Assembly: GCA_016926155.1 (NCBI GenBank)
Contig: JAFGPC010000217.1
Coordinates: 1-34,362, forward strand
DNA length: 34,362 bases
Reading direction: 5' to 3'
From: Sedimentisphaerales bacterium
GTDB taxonomy: Bacteria > Planctomycetota > Phycisphaerae > Sedimentisphaerales > Anaerohalosphaeraceae
Under the pieces are notes generated by a model that saw only the letters and a program-made list of their open reading frames with translations, did not search any database and was not told the DNA's origin. This document shows, one piece after another, positions 26,971 to 33,971 of the stretch (position 1 is its first letter; each line of letters starts with the position of its first letter). The translations under genes were made by a program, and so were the position numbers.

Positions 26971-27083
26971 TTCGTCATCGCACCATCAGCGAACACGTTT
27001 CAGGGTATGCGGTTATTCAGCCGGGCAGTACATAATTACGCGACTGTTTTTCTGGCTCTATGTGGAAGGGAAAGGATGGGATT

Positions 27084-27563
27084 ATGCAGGATGAGTACCT
27101 GCTGGTTCAGGACTTGTTGAAAAAGCACAATCTCTCGGTTTCGGCGCTTGCGGACCGGGCGGGAATGGCCGATTCCACCATGTACGAATATACCGGGGGA
27201 AGAAGAAAAAATATTCCAGTCTGTGTCTGGCGGGCCCTGTTTGAATTAACCGAGGATGTACGGATTCTGGATCTGGTCGTCGGGAATGTGGAAGTATTTG
27301 TCACCCCCATGCCCAAGCCGACAGGCCAGGACTGTACCGAAGATACGCTGAAGCGATTGATTGAAAAGCGAAAAAAGGATATCGAGTGTGAGACGGCGAT
27401 TCTGGATATCCTGGCCGACGGCAAAATCGATAAAGAGGACTGGCGGGCGATTGAGCAATATCGTGACGCCCATCCCGATGCCCTGATGCTGGATGCGCAA
27501 ATTTACCAGACGATCATGGCCAAATATGAAGAATCTCTCCAAAAAGAGAAGAGCGGGCAATAA
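27084..27563 (+). CDS. Small helix-turn-helix protein
   Basis: The 159-residue protein begins with a phage-CII-like or XRE-like helix-turn-helix: LKKHNLSVSALADRAGMADSTMYEYTGGRRKNIPVCVWRALFELT. The C-terminal half is a helical domain (LKRLIEKRKKDIECETAILDILADGKIDKEDWRAIEQYRDAHPDALML) rich in charged residues. It is likely a DNA-binding regulator; the target is unknown. The start at 27084 has GGATGGG upstream; an in-frame ATG 24 bases earlier lacks such a site. The sulfatase-maturase gene begins about 44 to 125 bases downstream on the same strand, so it may control it. Confidence 0.7.
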   Translation: MQDEYLLVQDLLKKHNLSVSALADRAGMADSTMYEYTGGRRKNIPVCVWRALFELTEDVRILDLVVGNVEVFVTPMPKPTGQDCTEDTLKRLIEKRKKDIECETAILDILADGKIDKEDWRAIEQYRDAHPDALMLDAQIYQTIMAKYEESLQKEKSGQ

Positions 27564-27606: not shown

Positions 27607-29046
27607 TTGATCTTCAAGATAAATGTAAAAACAGATCGTTGTAGATACGGGGATACAATTTTTTCCTTGGTTCGTCACTTTCACATAATGGTCAAACCGA
27701 CAGGTCCAATATGTAACCTGGCCTGTACCTATTGCTATTACCTGAGCAAAAAGGAGTTCTATCACGACAGGTGTCACTGGAGAATGTCGGATGCCGTACT
27801 GGAGCGTTTTATACGACAGTATATCGCCCAACAGGATGTCCAGGAAATCAACTTTTCCTGGCAAGGAGGTGAGCCGACGCTTTTGGGCATCGATTTCTTT
27901 GAAAAAGCCGTTCATTTTCAAAAATTGTACTGCCCGCCCACCAAACGCGTTGTAAATGATCTGCAAACCAACGGTACTTTATTGGATGAAGATTGGTGTC
28001 GCTTTCTGCATGAAAATCGGTTTCTAGTCGGCATCAGTATCGACGGCCCCCAAAAACTCCATGATATTTATCGTGTCGACCGAAACGGACAAGGCACTTT
28101 TAACCAGGTAATTTCCGGGATCAGGAACCTGCAAAAACAGAGAGTGGAATTTAACACATTAACCGTGGTCAATAAAACCAATGCTCGATACCCTCTTGAT
28201 GTGTATCATTTTTTGAGAGATGAATTAGGTTCAAAGTATCTGCAGTTCATCCCCTGTGTCGAACCGGTCGATTTTAAAACCACTGCTCCAGGCAATCGGA
28301 CCGAGCCGGATTCTTACGAGCCCGCCCACGAAGCAAACCAACCTGAAAGTCCGAATTCAGTTGTAACCGAATGGTCCGTCCATCCGGAAGACTATGGGAC
28401 TTTTTTATGTACAATTTTTGATGAATGGCTCCAACACGATATCGGCACTGTATTTGTGCCCTTATTCGACAATGCCCTGGGACAGTGGCTGGGCCTGCCT
28501 TCTTCCACTTGTTATTTCTCTGAGATCTGCGGTAAAGCATTGGCCCTGGAGCATGATGGGAGTGTGTATGCATGCGATCATTATGTATATCCGGAGTATA
28601 AGAGGGGAAACATCCGCGAGAAGACATTAGCAGAGATGGTCTATTCGGAACAGCAGGCCTGTTTCGGTCTGGATAAGCAAGATCGACTTCCGGGCTATTG
28701 TAAAGATTGTAAAGTATTGTTCGCCTGCAACGGAGAGTGCCCCAAAAACAGACTCCTGCGTACACCGGACGGAGAACCGGGATTAAACTATCTTTGTAGT
28801 GGCCTTTGGAAGTTTTTTCACCATATTGATCCCTGGATGAAGCAAATGGCGGAAGAACTTCGGGCAGGCCGCCCTGCCGTCAATATCATGAGGAATCTGG
28901 AAAACAAAACCATTCCAGTGATATCGCCTCAATCTTTACATCGCCCATCAAGAAAACAAAATGTAGAATATCCTTGTGATAATGGGTATAAATCCAAGAA
29001 ATGTCATTATCCCAATAATCCCGCTTCAATCAGTGAGGAGAAATGA
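27607..29046 (+). CDS. Anaerobic sulfatase-maturating enzyme (radical SAM, SPASM)
   Basis: The protein installs formylglycine in sulfatases by oxidising the active-site Cys or Ser, without oxygen. The radical-SAM cluster motif is CNLACTYC after HIMVKPTGPI. The SPASM half shows C-x5-C-x14-C-D, then C-x2-C-x5-C-x3-C-x18-C, the pattern of anSME (two auxiliary 4Fe-4S clusters). The Asp directly after the third Cys (YACDHYVYP) matches the catalytic base. A C-terminal tail of about 70 residues, with two extra Cys, goes beyond the usual end. The true start may be TTG at 27667 (27 residues less), which fits family N-termini better; 27607 is the longest in-frame start. The sulfatase begins nine bases after the stop, so it is the likely substrate. 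Confidence 0.9.
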   Translation: MIFKINVKTDRCRYGDTIFSLVRHFHIMVKPTGPICNLACTYCYYLSKKEFYHDRCHWRMSDAVLERFIRQYIAQQDVQEINFSWQGGEPTLLGIDFFEKAVHFQKLYCPPTKRVVNDLQTNGTLLDEDWCRFLHENRFLVGISIDGPQKLHDIYRVDRNGQGTFNQVISGIRNLQKQRVEFNTLTVVNKTNARYPLDVYHFLRDELGSKYLQFIPCVEPVDFKTTAPGNRTEPDSYEPAHEANQPESPNSVVTEWSVHPEDYGTFLCTIFDEWLQHDIGTVFVPLFDNALGQWLGLPSSTCYFSEICGKALALEHDGSVYACDHYVYPEYKRGNIREKTLAEMVYSEQQACFGLDKQDRLPGYCKDCKVLFACNGECPKNRLLRTPDGEPGLNYLCSGLWKFFHHIDPWMKQMAEELRAGRPAVNIMRNLENKTIPVISPQSLHRPSRKQNVEYPCDNGYKSKKCHYPNNPASISEEK

Positions 29047-29055
29047 AGGTATTTT

Positions 29056-31800
29056 ATGGAGATGCTTAATCGGATCACCCATTCCAACTGGAATTTCAAA
29101 GCCGGGACACTGAGTTTATTGGCCGGCTCAACAAGCATAGGAGGCTCTGTATGCTTGTCTGCTGCCCCACCAACCGACAAACCACACAACATTATCCTTA
29201 TCGTTGCAGATGACCTGGGATGGAGGGATATCAACTGTCATTCCAATCCGGACTGTCCCGGAGAGACAGAGAGCCAAGCATCCACCAAATGCATTTGTCC
29301 GGATCAGACTTTTAAGTGGGATAATGCAAAGCACACAACCCCTAATTTGCGAAGGCTGGCTGACAAAGGGGTTCGTTTTTCCAATGCGTATGCCGCCTGT
29401 CCATTTTGTAAGGCTACACGGGCTTCCCTCTTAACAGGTAAGCATCCGATGCGATTGGGATTAACGGCACCCATGGCAGGACCGGGAATGAGTCTTTCGG
29501 AAACCACGATCGCCGAAGCATTGAAGGAACAGGACTCACGATACGCCTGCGGTGCATTCGGCAAGTGGCATGTCGCGGCCGTAGCGGCAGACATGGATTA
29601 CAATGGCCGCTCAAGTTCGACGAACAACAATTATTATAATTCCCAACTCTACCCGGAACATCAGGGCTTTGACAATCATGATCTAGCCGTAAACCCCAAT
29701 AACAACAAATGGATTAACTCGGAGAAACCGGACATTGTCGAGGCCGGGGATAACAACTATATAAACGGTTACGATCATGACTTTTATTTTGTGAATCAAG
29801 CAAGAGACTTCATAACCAGAACTGTCCAGGACCATCCTCATCCGTTTTTTGTATACCTCGAATTTCTTTCAGTGCATCAGTCATCTCAAACGGGGAAGGT
29901 TGGCCGCAAATACGTTAAAATGGTCTATGATGAATATGTGCACAAGCTGGACATCAATGTCGGACGTGTGCTCCGATTTCTCGATTCAAACAACCGTGAG
30001 GAAGGCGGTATCCAGCATGTAGACTGGGACAACACCTATGTTTTATTCTACTCCGATAACGGAGCAGCCATGAACAATGCGCCTCTTCGAGACGAGAAAT
30101 TAACTGTGTATGAAGGGGGCATTCGTGTACCGCTCATAGTCGCAGGACCCAATGTGGCAGAAAAGCAACATTGTAAAGAACCGATAAGCAGCATCGATTT
30201 TTTCCCGACTGTGCTTCAAATGGCTTTTACAGAAAGGTACGATCCCGAGCGAGACTACCTAATGGATGGGAAAAGTTTTCTACGATGTCTGGATAATGAC
30301 CAAGACAACGACAGAATTAAACGGGAACAAGGGGGAATCATTTTCTGCGAAGGATATGATTATTATTCCAATGGAGAGCATGAAAGCGGATTGGTCGCCC
30401 GGGAATATGAAGCTCGATTCGCCATCCGCGGAAACGGCATATACGATAACTATAAATTGCTGCGAAGCTGGGATAGAAAAACGAATGCCTTTTCCTATGA
30501 ACTATATGATCTTTTAACGGATCAGGGTGAAACGATTAATCTGTATAACAAACAAGTTCATCATCCAATCAGCGCCTATTTAAAAGAGAAGCTACAGGAC
30601 TGGTTTCGGCTCCATATTCGACCCTTTAATCCTTCGAAAATCGGCGATCCAAAAACATTTACCGGACACAATGACACCGGGTATTACGAGCATGAATACA
30701 GTGATGGAATGATTCGATTACACGCCATCCAAAACGCCGTTAATGATGCGGAAAATGGGGATACAATCATCTTACCGGCAGCTACATTGTATCCGGCGAT
30801 CAGCCCTTTTCATTCAGATTGGAGACGTTTCGGAAACCTTACAATTGACAAGTCGATCACATTAATCTCCAGAAATCCCTACGATCCCCTGATTACGGCG
30901 GCAACCATTCTGGACGGCAATCGACACGGACCGAACGACAAAGGAAAGGACATTCCTGACGGACAGACAATCAAGATTGTTCCAAATCGCAACAATCAAA
31001 AAATTGAGGTGCATCTTATCGGTTTAACTATCACAGGCGGACGATGTGTCGAAGTAAAGGATACTGCGTTAGACGGCATGGGAATTCATGGTAGTGGCGC
31101 CAATGCACAAAGTACAATTAAACAATGTCTAATAAATAACAATATGACCCTCTTTGGAAATGGAGGGGCCATTTACAATTTCCCCGGCACAATCGCGGAA
31201 TGTATCTTTTACGACAACCGAGCCGGAGGAAATGGCGGAGCACTGGCAGACATTCATGGGATTATTCGCGACAGCGCCATAATGCACAATGCTGCTGATG
31301 GAAATGGAGGCGCGATCGCCAACAGTAGCGCCCACCTCCTGAACTGCACGATCATGAACAACAGAACTCAAGGTCGTGGCGGAGCTCTTTGGTGGTCCAT
31401 AGCTACCTCTCCGACAATCCGTAATTGTATCTTTTGGAATAATGCTGAAATCCGCAAACCGGAAACATCACATACAGAACATTTTTTTGCCGGCCCGGCC
31501 AATCCGATCATTTCGTATTGTTGCATTCAAAACTCAATTTCCAATACCATTTATTATGCCGGCATTGGAAATCTTTTGAAGAATCCGACACTTGTTGATG
31601 GGGTGGGAATGAATTATCATTTGCTCCCCGGATCTCCATGTATCGATGCAGGCGATCCGGATTCAACACAAACAAATCGACTCGATATCGACCGACAACC
31701 CCGGATTATGGGCAAACATATCGATATAGGCGCGGATGAATGGGCTGAAGGATGTATATCTCAACCTCTACCCTATCAAAGAAGACCGTCTGACTTTTGA
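29056..31800 (+). CDS. Sulfatase fused to a C-terminal beta-helix domain
   Basis: Residues about 44-530 are a type I sulfatase: metal-binding D52-D53 (ADDLGW), formylglycine site C118-K-A-T-R122 followed by ASLLTGKHP, GKWH (about 174), YSDNGA (about 335) and GIRVPLIVAGP. The site is Cys-type with Ala instead of Pro, which anSME enzymes accept. A Cys-rich insert lies between GWRDIN and TPNLRRLA (C61, C67, C79, C81). Residues about 555-914 form a right-handed beta-helix with polymorphic repeats (GNGGAIYNF, GNGGALADI, GNGGAIANS, GRGGALWWS) and end in IDIGADEWAEG. The N-terminus has a weak signal-like stretch (LSLLAGSTSIGGSVCLSAA). The fusion suggests binding and desulfation of a sulfated polysaccharide. 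AAGG lies six bases before ATG. Confidence 0.88.
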   Translation: MEMLNRITHSNWNFKAGTLSLLAGSTSIGGSVCLSAAPPTDKPHNIILIVADDLGWRDINCHSNPDCPGETESQASTKCICPDQTFKWDNAKHTTPNLRRLADKGVRFSNAYAACPFCKATRASLLTGKHPMRLGLTAPMAGPGMSLSETTIAEALKEQDSRYACGAFGKWHVAAVAADMDYNGRSSSTNNNYYNSQLYPEHQGFDNHDLAVNPNNNKWINSEKPDIVEAGDNNYINGYDHDFYFVNQARDFITRTVQDHPHPFFVYLEFLSVHQSSQTGKVGRKYVKMVYDEYVHKLDINVGRVLRFLDSNNREEGGIQHVDWDNTYVLFYSDNGAAMNNAPLRDEKLTVYEGGIRVPLIVAGPNVAEKQHCKEPISSIDFFPTVLQMAFTERYDPERDYLMDGKSFLRCLDNDQDNDRIKREQGGIIFCEGYDYYSNGEHESGLVAREYEARFAIRGNGIYDNYKLLRSWDRKTNAFSYELYDLLTDQGETINLYNKQVHHPISAYLKEKLQDWFRLHIRPFNPSKIGDPKTFTGHNDTGYYEHEYSDGMIRLHAIQNAVNDAENGDTIILPAATLYPAISPFHSDWRRFGNLTIDKSITLISRNPYDPLITAATILDGNRHGPNDKGKDIPDGQTIKIVPNRNNQKIEVHLIGLTITGGRCVEVKDTALDGMGIHGSGANAQSTIKQCLINNNMTLFGNGGAIYNFPGTIAECIFYDNRAGGNGGALADIHGIIRDSAIMHNAADGNGGAIANSSAHLLNCTIMNNRTQGRGGALWWSIATSPTIRNCIFWNNAEIRKPETSHTEHFFAGPANPIISYCCIQNSISNTIYYAGIGNLLKNPTLVDGVGMNYHLLPGSPCIDAGDPDSTQTNRLDIDRQPRIMGKHIDIGADEWAEGCISQPLPYQRRPSDF

Positions 31801-32822: not shown

Positions 32823-33971
32823 GTGAGAAATAAGGCCTTTCATGCAATTCTTTTCTTCCTATCAAGCGTTCTTTTTTGGTCGGCTTGTTCAGCCGAACCT
32901 GTGCGGAAACAGATTGCCCAGGAGGGAAAGGGCTATCTGGAAACTGTGGATGGTTATCGTGTACTGCACCTGAAAGGAAGCCCGGAAGAAATGGGGTATC
33001 AGCATGGCATTCTGCTCAGGGATGCCATTCGTGAAAATGTTGGTTTTCTGCTCCGGGGAGACAAAGAAGAGGGATTGGAGTTTCAGGGCATCAAGCTTTC
33101 CCGCTCCATGATCGCGAATATGTTGACCCTGCGTTTTGAACAACAGGTTCCAAAACGTTTTGTCCAGGAAATGAAAGCCATGGCCAAAGGAGCAGGACTG
33201 ACGGACGTGCAGGTTATCGGCACAAACCTGATTCCGGAGCTGATGCATTGCAGCGGCTTCGCCCTGTTGTCCGAAGCTACTGCTGAGAAAAAACTGTATC
33301 ATGGACGAGTACTGGATTACGGTATTGACATGCGCCTGCAGGAGCATGCCGTATTAATTATCCAGGAACCCGAAGGAAAGATTCCCTTTGTGAATGTTTC
33401 GTATGCGGGCTTTATCGGCTCGGTCACCGGGATGAATGCAGCGCAGGTAAGCATAGGAGAAATGGGAGGCGGAGGCGTAGGGCAATGGGAAGGAATCCCG
33501 ATGAGTTTTCTGGTGCGAATGGTACTCGAGGATGCCGATTCATTGGAGGAAGCGATCAATGTCTTCCAAGACAATCCCCGTACCTGCGAATATTACTATG
33601 TTATCGCCGATGCCAAAGTGGATTCTGCGGTGGGTATGAAGGCGGTTCCTGAAAAGGTGGAGCTGGTCCTGCCGGGAACGTGGCACGAGCTCCTTCCCAT
33701 GCCGGTAAAGAATACAGTGCTGATGTCAGCCGGGGACCGATATCATAATCTGTCCCAATTGGTCGCCAAGGGATACGGAACCTTCACCCAAGAGACTGCG
33801 ATCCGCCTCATGGACGCCCCGGTCGCCATGAAATCAAATCTGCACGACGTTTTAATGGTGCCCCAGGATGGGATTCTATACGTCGCCAATGCAAGTAAAG
33901 ATGGCTCTCCGGCCTGGAAGCAAAAATACTATCGATTTGATCTTCATACGCTGATGAATGAAAAACCGTAA
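32823..33971 (+). CDS. C45-type autoproteolytic acyltransferase/hydrolase, exported
   Basis: The 382-residue protein resembles peptidase family C45 (acyl-coenzyme A:6-aminopenicillanic-acid acyltransferase type), Ntn hydrolases that cut themselves before a Cys nucleophile. The conserved pieces are GSPEEMGYQHG, the nucleophile region MHCSGFALL (C143), GRVLDYGID, and GSVTGMNAAQVSIGEM. It begins with a signal (MRNKAFHAILFFLSSVLFWSACSAEP); C22 could be a lipid-attachment site, though the lipobox is imperfect. Substrates of exported members are mostly unknown (amides, N-acyl compounds). It starts with GTG, with AGGAG seven bases upstream. Its stop codon coincides with the end of the antisense RHS fragment, so the last few residues may come from a recombination. 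Confidence 0.85.
   Translation: MRNKAFHAILFFLSSVLFWSACSAEPVRKQIAQEGKGYLETVDGYRVLHLKGSPEEMGYQHGILLRDAIRENVGFLLRGDKEEGLEFQGIKLSRSMIANMLTLRFEQQVPKRFVQEMKAMAKGAGLTDVQVIGTNLIPELMHCSGFALLSEATAEKKLYHGRVLDYGIDMRLQEHAVLIIQEPEGKIPFVNVSYAGFIGSVTGMNAAQVSIGEMGGGGVGQWEGIPMSFLVRMVLEDADSLEEAINVFQDNPRTCEYYYVIADAKVDSAVGMKAVPEKVELVLPGTWHELLPMPVKNTVLMSAGDRYHNLSQLVAKGYGTFTQETAIRLMDAPVAMKSNLHDVLMVPQDGILYVANASKDGSPAWKQKYYRFDLHTLMNEKP

Follow-up and report, generated by a model that had tools for sequence, protein, structure and literature searches.

The atsB-atsA genes of Klebsiella constitute a long-known maturase-sulfatase operon, in which they reportedly follow one another in that order. A paper on this atsA/atsB operon appears in the reference list of PMC3920027, and PMC6388578 describes a single anaerobic sulfatase-maturating enzyme (anSME) that serves several sulfatases in Bacteroides thetaiotaomicron. 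The anSME of Clostridium perfringens is represented by PDB entries 4k36-4k39, and PMC5715301 lists its Cys ligands, including those of two auxiliary clusters. Here, we analyzed a 34,362-nt stretch of the genome of a Sedimentisphaerales bacterium (assembly GCA_016926155.1, contig JAFGPC010000217.1, positions 1 to 34,362; hereafter, the window), in which an anSME gene stands directly ahead of the gene of a formylglycine-type sulfatase fused to a right-handed beta-helix. As in the Klebsiella operon, a maturase gene is paired with that of a sulfatase, the likeness of the window pair being one of gene order and spacing, and the window differs by the Cys-type modification site and by the beta-helix carried on its sulfatase.

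It is probable that this pair corresponds to a bicistron of the atsBA kind, whose sulfatase is a rare and fast-diverging variant, and that the maturase would be its preferred local supplier of activation and not an exclusive one. The novelty of the locus lies in the rare sulfatase/beta-helix architecture; the two-gene layout is ordinary, and at present its value is descriptive.

The bicistron and its relatives in two other genomes

The maturase open reading frame (ORF) spans positions 27607-29046 (479 aa, TTG start) and the sulfatase/beta-helix ORF positions 29056-31800 (914 aa, ATG start), both on the forward strand, as are all features of the pair given below. A preliminary description of this DNA had placed the maturase nine bases ahead of its likely substrate, and the ORF coordinates agreed, leaving 9 nt (29047-29055) between the two genes. 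The start of the maturase is uncertain: homology was detected from residue ~12-26, and the true start may lie up to ~27 codons downstream. Both genes presented the lowest third-position GC (0.463 and 0.457) of the 25 window genes measured, the other 23 having a mean of 0.567, a standard deviation of 0.062 and a next lowest value of 0.464.

The same bicistron, with a gap of 10 nt, was found in G111, a genome from the same family but a different genus. Among the 27 window proteins compared with the 9.75-kb G111 contig, only the maturase and the sulfatase found a match, the maturases being ~64% identical and the sulfatases 27-33% identical in separate pieces. A third sulfatase of this architecture was found in genome G135, so that the fusion clade occurred in three of 161 genomes of the order and in the same three of 397 genomes of the class. 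In a tree of 56 sulfatases, computed on alignment columns with at least 60% of the rows occupied, the window, G111 and G135 proteins formed one clade (Shimodaira-Hasegawa-like approximate likelihood ratio test, SH-aLRT, 97) inside the group typified by the CPVCSPTR motif; G111 and G135 were long branches that meet, and the branching order within the clade is unsure. A profile of the junction between the sulfatase and helix parts, built from these three sulfatases themselves, gave, among the matches listed, whole-length matches only in the same three class genomes (E of 8e-45 or lower), with the next match at 1.3e-15 and the others falling mainly on the beta-helix cap. Therefore, the beta-helix itself is a common module of the group.

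A GWxx[DG]INC-like pattern gave seven matches in the 161 genomes, namely the three clade sulfatases and four unrelated frames, and a stricter pattern of the insertion described below, run on 392 genomes of the phylum, recovered the window and one non-sulfatase frame. A general scan of genome contigs with the fusion returned eight loci, of which seven aligned to the beta-helix and one (L020) to the sulfatase part, with no homologue of the whole fusion among them. No relatives of either protein were found in the viral contigs searched, and no literature on sulfatase-beta-helix fusions or on SEC-C tails of anSMEs was found by title and abstract start among open-licence full texts. The sulfatase protein search of the 161 order genomes, in which the best eight candidates per genome were scored, missed the G111 homologue, which was found via its adjoining maturase and then again by the pattern and junction-profile searches.

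No maturase was found on the 10.6-kb contig of G135. The best maturase match in that genome reached 2e-62, as is usual for maturases of the canonical kind, and the genome is 88% complete, so that absence is unproven.

Each of the two relatives also showed peculiarities of its own. The G111 sulfatase (L083, G111:C188 2678-5716) harbored a laminin-G-type domain inside the catalytic fold and another stretch of this type beyond it; its ORF broke off in the first part of the helix, and the other frames showed no continuation. The G135 sulfatase/beta-helix protein (L090, G135:C321 3699-6314) ended in a dockerin type I stretch.

The maturase, the sulfatase insertion and the beta-helix

By family models and motif Cys, the first protein is a long-type anSME, for which formylglycine formation is predicted. 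It scored 508 bits with TIGR03942 (cut-off 349.45) and 487 bits with PRK13745 (cut-off 484), contained the Pfam domains Radical_SAM and SPASM, and found its best PDB matches in the anSME entries 4k36/4k37 (1.7e-66). The radical-SAM CX3CX2C motif lies at C36/C40/C43, and the eight SPASM-region Cys (302, 308, 323, 365, 368, 374, 378 and 397) aligned with 4k36. These Cys are thus common to the window maturase and the C. perfringens enzyme, from which the former differs by its greater length and by a decayed C-terminal tail of the SEC-C type. Matches better than 1e-100, in practice of the long type, were found in eight of 161 order genomes, and matches at 1e-90 or better in 27 of 392 phylum genomes, the window genome being included in both counts. 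In the maturase tree, in which one very long branch (L125) is probably due to a bad reading frame, the window, G111 and G133 enzymes formed one clade (SH-aLRT 95), and the second anSME of the window genome (contig C13) belonged to another clade, which consists of shorter enzymes and has full support.

The extra Cys in the long tail of the maturase had been put forward as a special feature. However, C457 and C466 aligned with the SEC-C motif (C-x-C-x8-C-[CH]), which is above the Pfam cut-off in the G111, G128 and G021 relatives and was recognized in degenerate form at residues ~454-469 (28966-29013) by comparison with intact SEC-C in the tails of relatives. In the window maturase, no SEC-C match was obtained with Pfam up to E = 1, the first motif Cys being replaced by Tyr. 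A new metal site in this tail was thus dropped as a candidate in favor of a decayed motif that is intact in many relatives.

The second protein contained a Pfam Sulfatase domain at residues 45-390 (29188-30225; 140.5 bits, cut-off 25) and an SGSH_C domain. The expected C-x-A-x-R site was present as CKATR, read as a motif at residues C118-R122 (29407-29421), in agreement with the C-x-[AP]-x-R site of S1 formylglycine sulfatases. D52, D53, C118, R122, K129, K170, H274, D334, N335 and K348 were invariant in the window, G111 and G135 sulfatases, the metal-binding and catalytic roles being assigned by motif position and not by structure. The closest solved sulfatases were the kappa-carrageenan S1_16 enzyme (9fo1, 2.2e-33) and GalNAc-6-sulfatase (7stt), a likeness that implies no substrate assignment; they share with the window protein the formylglycine motif, the metal-site DD, DNG and YEGGIRVP, and the window protein differs by a Cys-rich insertion after the DD and by the ~360-residue beta-helix.

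This insertion follows the family Cys61 and includes C67, C79 and C81 (residues 61-90; 29236-29325). The span from DD to TG was 49-53 aa in 52 of the 56 motif-picked sulfatases from the fetched loci, and 70, 77 and 79 aa in those of G135, the window and G111, respectively; the single value of 67 came from a wrongly anchored match. Judged from this motif spacing, the insertion in the window sulfatase is more than chance. Of the four Cys formerly attributed to it, three are additional, whereas C61 is a family Cys (type DDLGxxDxxC) that many ordinary sulfatases of the 56-member list carry equally far behind the Asp pair, and C115 is likewise common in this group. It was also considered that other sulfatases of the same genome might share the insertion, and this was rejected: 35 of the 45 ORFs found with the sulfatase profile had normal spacing, nine were unmeasurable, and the window ORF stood alone. 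These values came from two motif passes plus one ORF taken from the 56-sulfatase list, with readings of 96, 116, 71 and 83 set aside as wrongly anchored. The full-length AlphaFold model of the sulfatase was not used (mean predicted local distance difference test, pLDDT, 42.3; sulfatase part not modelled), and the motif order would place the insertion near the active site.

The preliminary description had proposed a specialized, co-evolved pair and a search for sulfatases sharing the insertion together with their linked maturases. The conserved bicistron of G111 speaks for the first proposal, but the insertion Cys and the maturase did not behave as a matched set: the G135 insertion contained three Cys in the same order as in the window with no maturase on the contig, and that of G111, where the maturase is linked as in the window, was of similar length and devoid of the extra Cys. 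A lack of conservation of the insertion, named beforehand as a refuting observation, was thus seen for the Cys in one of the two relatives.

The beta-helix of ~360 residues, also part of the first account of the sulfatase, was confirmed as a C-terminal parallel beta-helix (residues ~555-914; 30718-31800). The AlphaFold model of residues 561-914, computed from eight alignment rows, showed regular beta-helix strands with a mean pLDDT of 62.5 (83-86 at residues ~711-770) and a predicted template modelling score (pTM) of 0.72, and its best Foldseek matches were beta-helix proteins, none of them at E <= 0.001. The helix sequence matched PMP-type repeats and, at residues 849-895 (31600-31740), the choice-of-anchor Q domain (NF041518, 32.7 bits, cut-off 25). 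Beta-helix/choice-of-anchor Q proteins of the same order share the N-cap and the repeats with this tail, and the window protein differs from them by the junction to the sulfatase, seen only in the three of 397 class genomes.

How far the maturase is dedicated to its neighbor

If the pair works as an atsBA-like unit, the radical-SAM anSME would be made first from a shared transcript and would act in the cytoplasm on the sulfatase before it folds, converting its C118 to formylglycine, after which the sulfatase would be exported and would hydrolyze a sulfate ester on a presumed glycan. Modules like the C-terminal beta-helix abound in the large proteins of the order; here, its most likely role is to display or anchor the enzyme or to bind substrate, and the Cys-rich insertion after the metal-binding Asp pair probably shapes or braces the rim of the active site via disulfides or a bound metal. 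Such a unit would be a naturally occurring case in which to test for substrate restriction of anaerobic maturases, which, if true, bears on sulfatase expression and on formylglycine tagging; the insertion and the beta-helix provide, in addition, a defined marker for a rare sulfatase subgroup.

The adjacency itself had been regarded as unusual for an enzyme that commonly serves many sulfatases, and this view was not supported. A sulfatase ORF was found within flanks of up to 1.5 kb at 16 of 30 maturase loci of the order, the window included, that is, at 15 of the 29 others, as counted with a sulfatase profile built partly from the loci scanned and hence not independent of the motif search. Among the seven long-type loci of the order other than the window, a sulfatase was near in four, as read on the longer contigs: in G111, it was the same fusion, and in G128, G021 and G155 a different sulfatase type of ~800 aa, one gene away from the maturase in G128 and G155. 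Two further long-type loci (G133 and G055) were cut by contig ends, and no sulfatase was found near the long-type maturase of G153.

Three observations weigh against reading the pair as a functional bicistron. Only four of 26 long-type loci of the wider phylum (L101-L126) had a sulfatase within 1.5 kb, as counted with the same profile; the maturases of the window and G111 are far more alike than their sulfatases, which implies unlike rates of divergence; and the genome holds other possible activators, with a second anSME on contig C13 and 12 FGE-domain (formylglycine-generating enzyme) matches. In the same genome, 49 matches to sulfatases exceeded the cut-off, although some are pieces of one gene, and with two anSMEs and 12 FGE-domain matches beside them exclusivity of the maturase is not claimable. 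As an observation apart, ten sulfatase ORFs were found within 17 kb elsewhere in the genome (G000:C191:1500-18500, L157), on a contig with no anSME match.

A strictly dedicated, co-evolved pair, in which the maturase recognizes only this sulfatase through the insertion or the beta-helix and no other enzyme matures it, seems unlikely. It would agree with the bicistron kept in G111 with no other shared gene found, with a maturase subtype distinct from the other anSME of the genome and with the low third-position GC common to both genes, but in G111 and G135 the insertion Cys occur separately from a linked maturase, the Cys-bearing insertion is present in G135, where no match to this maturase better than 2e-62 was found, and in G128, G021 and G155 maturases of the same subtype lie near a sulfatase of another type. 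An adjacency with no special link, in which the C13 anSME or an FGE matures the sulfatase and the window maturase serves the whole sulfatase set, fits the number of activators and sulfatases in the genome and the B. thetaiotaomicron precedent; moreover, the 15 kb of sequence read around the C13 maturase showed no sulfatase bearing the motif. Nevertheless, two genera whose neighboring genes otherwise differ share the gene order and a spacing of 9-10 nt, and we hold this explanation to be improbable.

It is unlikely, although conceivable, that the maturase and the sulfatase/beta-helix gene form a cassette inherited or transferred as a unit with its own means of activation, which would mature a rapidly diverging surface sulfatase whatever the general maturase of the host accepts; the active-site insertion would then be a knuckle of three Cys, with a metal or disulfides, in the window and G135 and another sequence in G111. 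Most improbable is a two-step enzyme with the beta-helix as a second catalytic domain, that is, a polysaccharide lyase or glycosidase of that fold: the weak fold matches did include PL6 alginate lyases and a lacto-N-biosidase, but none passed the Foldseek threshold, the model was of middling confidence, the sequence matched PMP-type repeats and choice-of-anchor Q and no lyase family, and the G111 ORF ends before most of the helix. The atsBA-like bicistron with a preferred supplier thus remains our reading of the pair.

Surroundings of the pair

The window also encodes GFO/IDH/MocA oxidoreductases, a GH130 protein, an SSF symporter, DUF2961 and DUF362 proteins, a sigma-54-type response regulator and an ECF sigma factor. 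A sulfated polysaccharide such as fucoidan, ulvan, carrageenan or porphyran had been suggested as the substrate; however, no polysaccharide lyase or second sulfatase was seen by Pfam among 19 of the 27 window proteins listed by ORF length, and the sole glycan enzyme found near the pair was the GH130 protein, 12 kb away. Therefore, apart from the sulfatase itself, nothing found locally supports the polysaccharide idea.

The maturase ORF is preceded, at a distance of 43 nt, by the gene of a Phage_CP76/CII-like regulator (27060-27563, +). Downstream of the pair, a C45-family autoproteolytic acyltransferase/hydrolase is encoded at 32823-33971 (+), and an RHS/YD-repeat fragment at the contig end (33876-34361, -) overlaps the end of that gene on the other strand.

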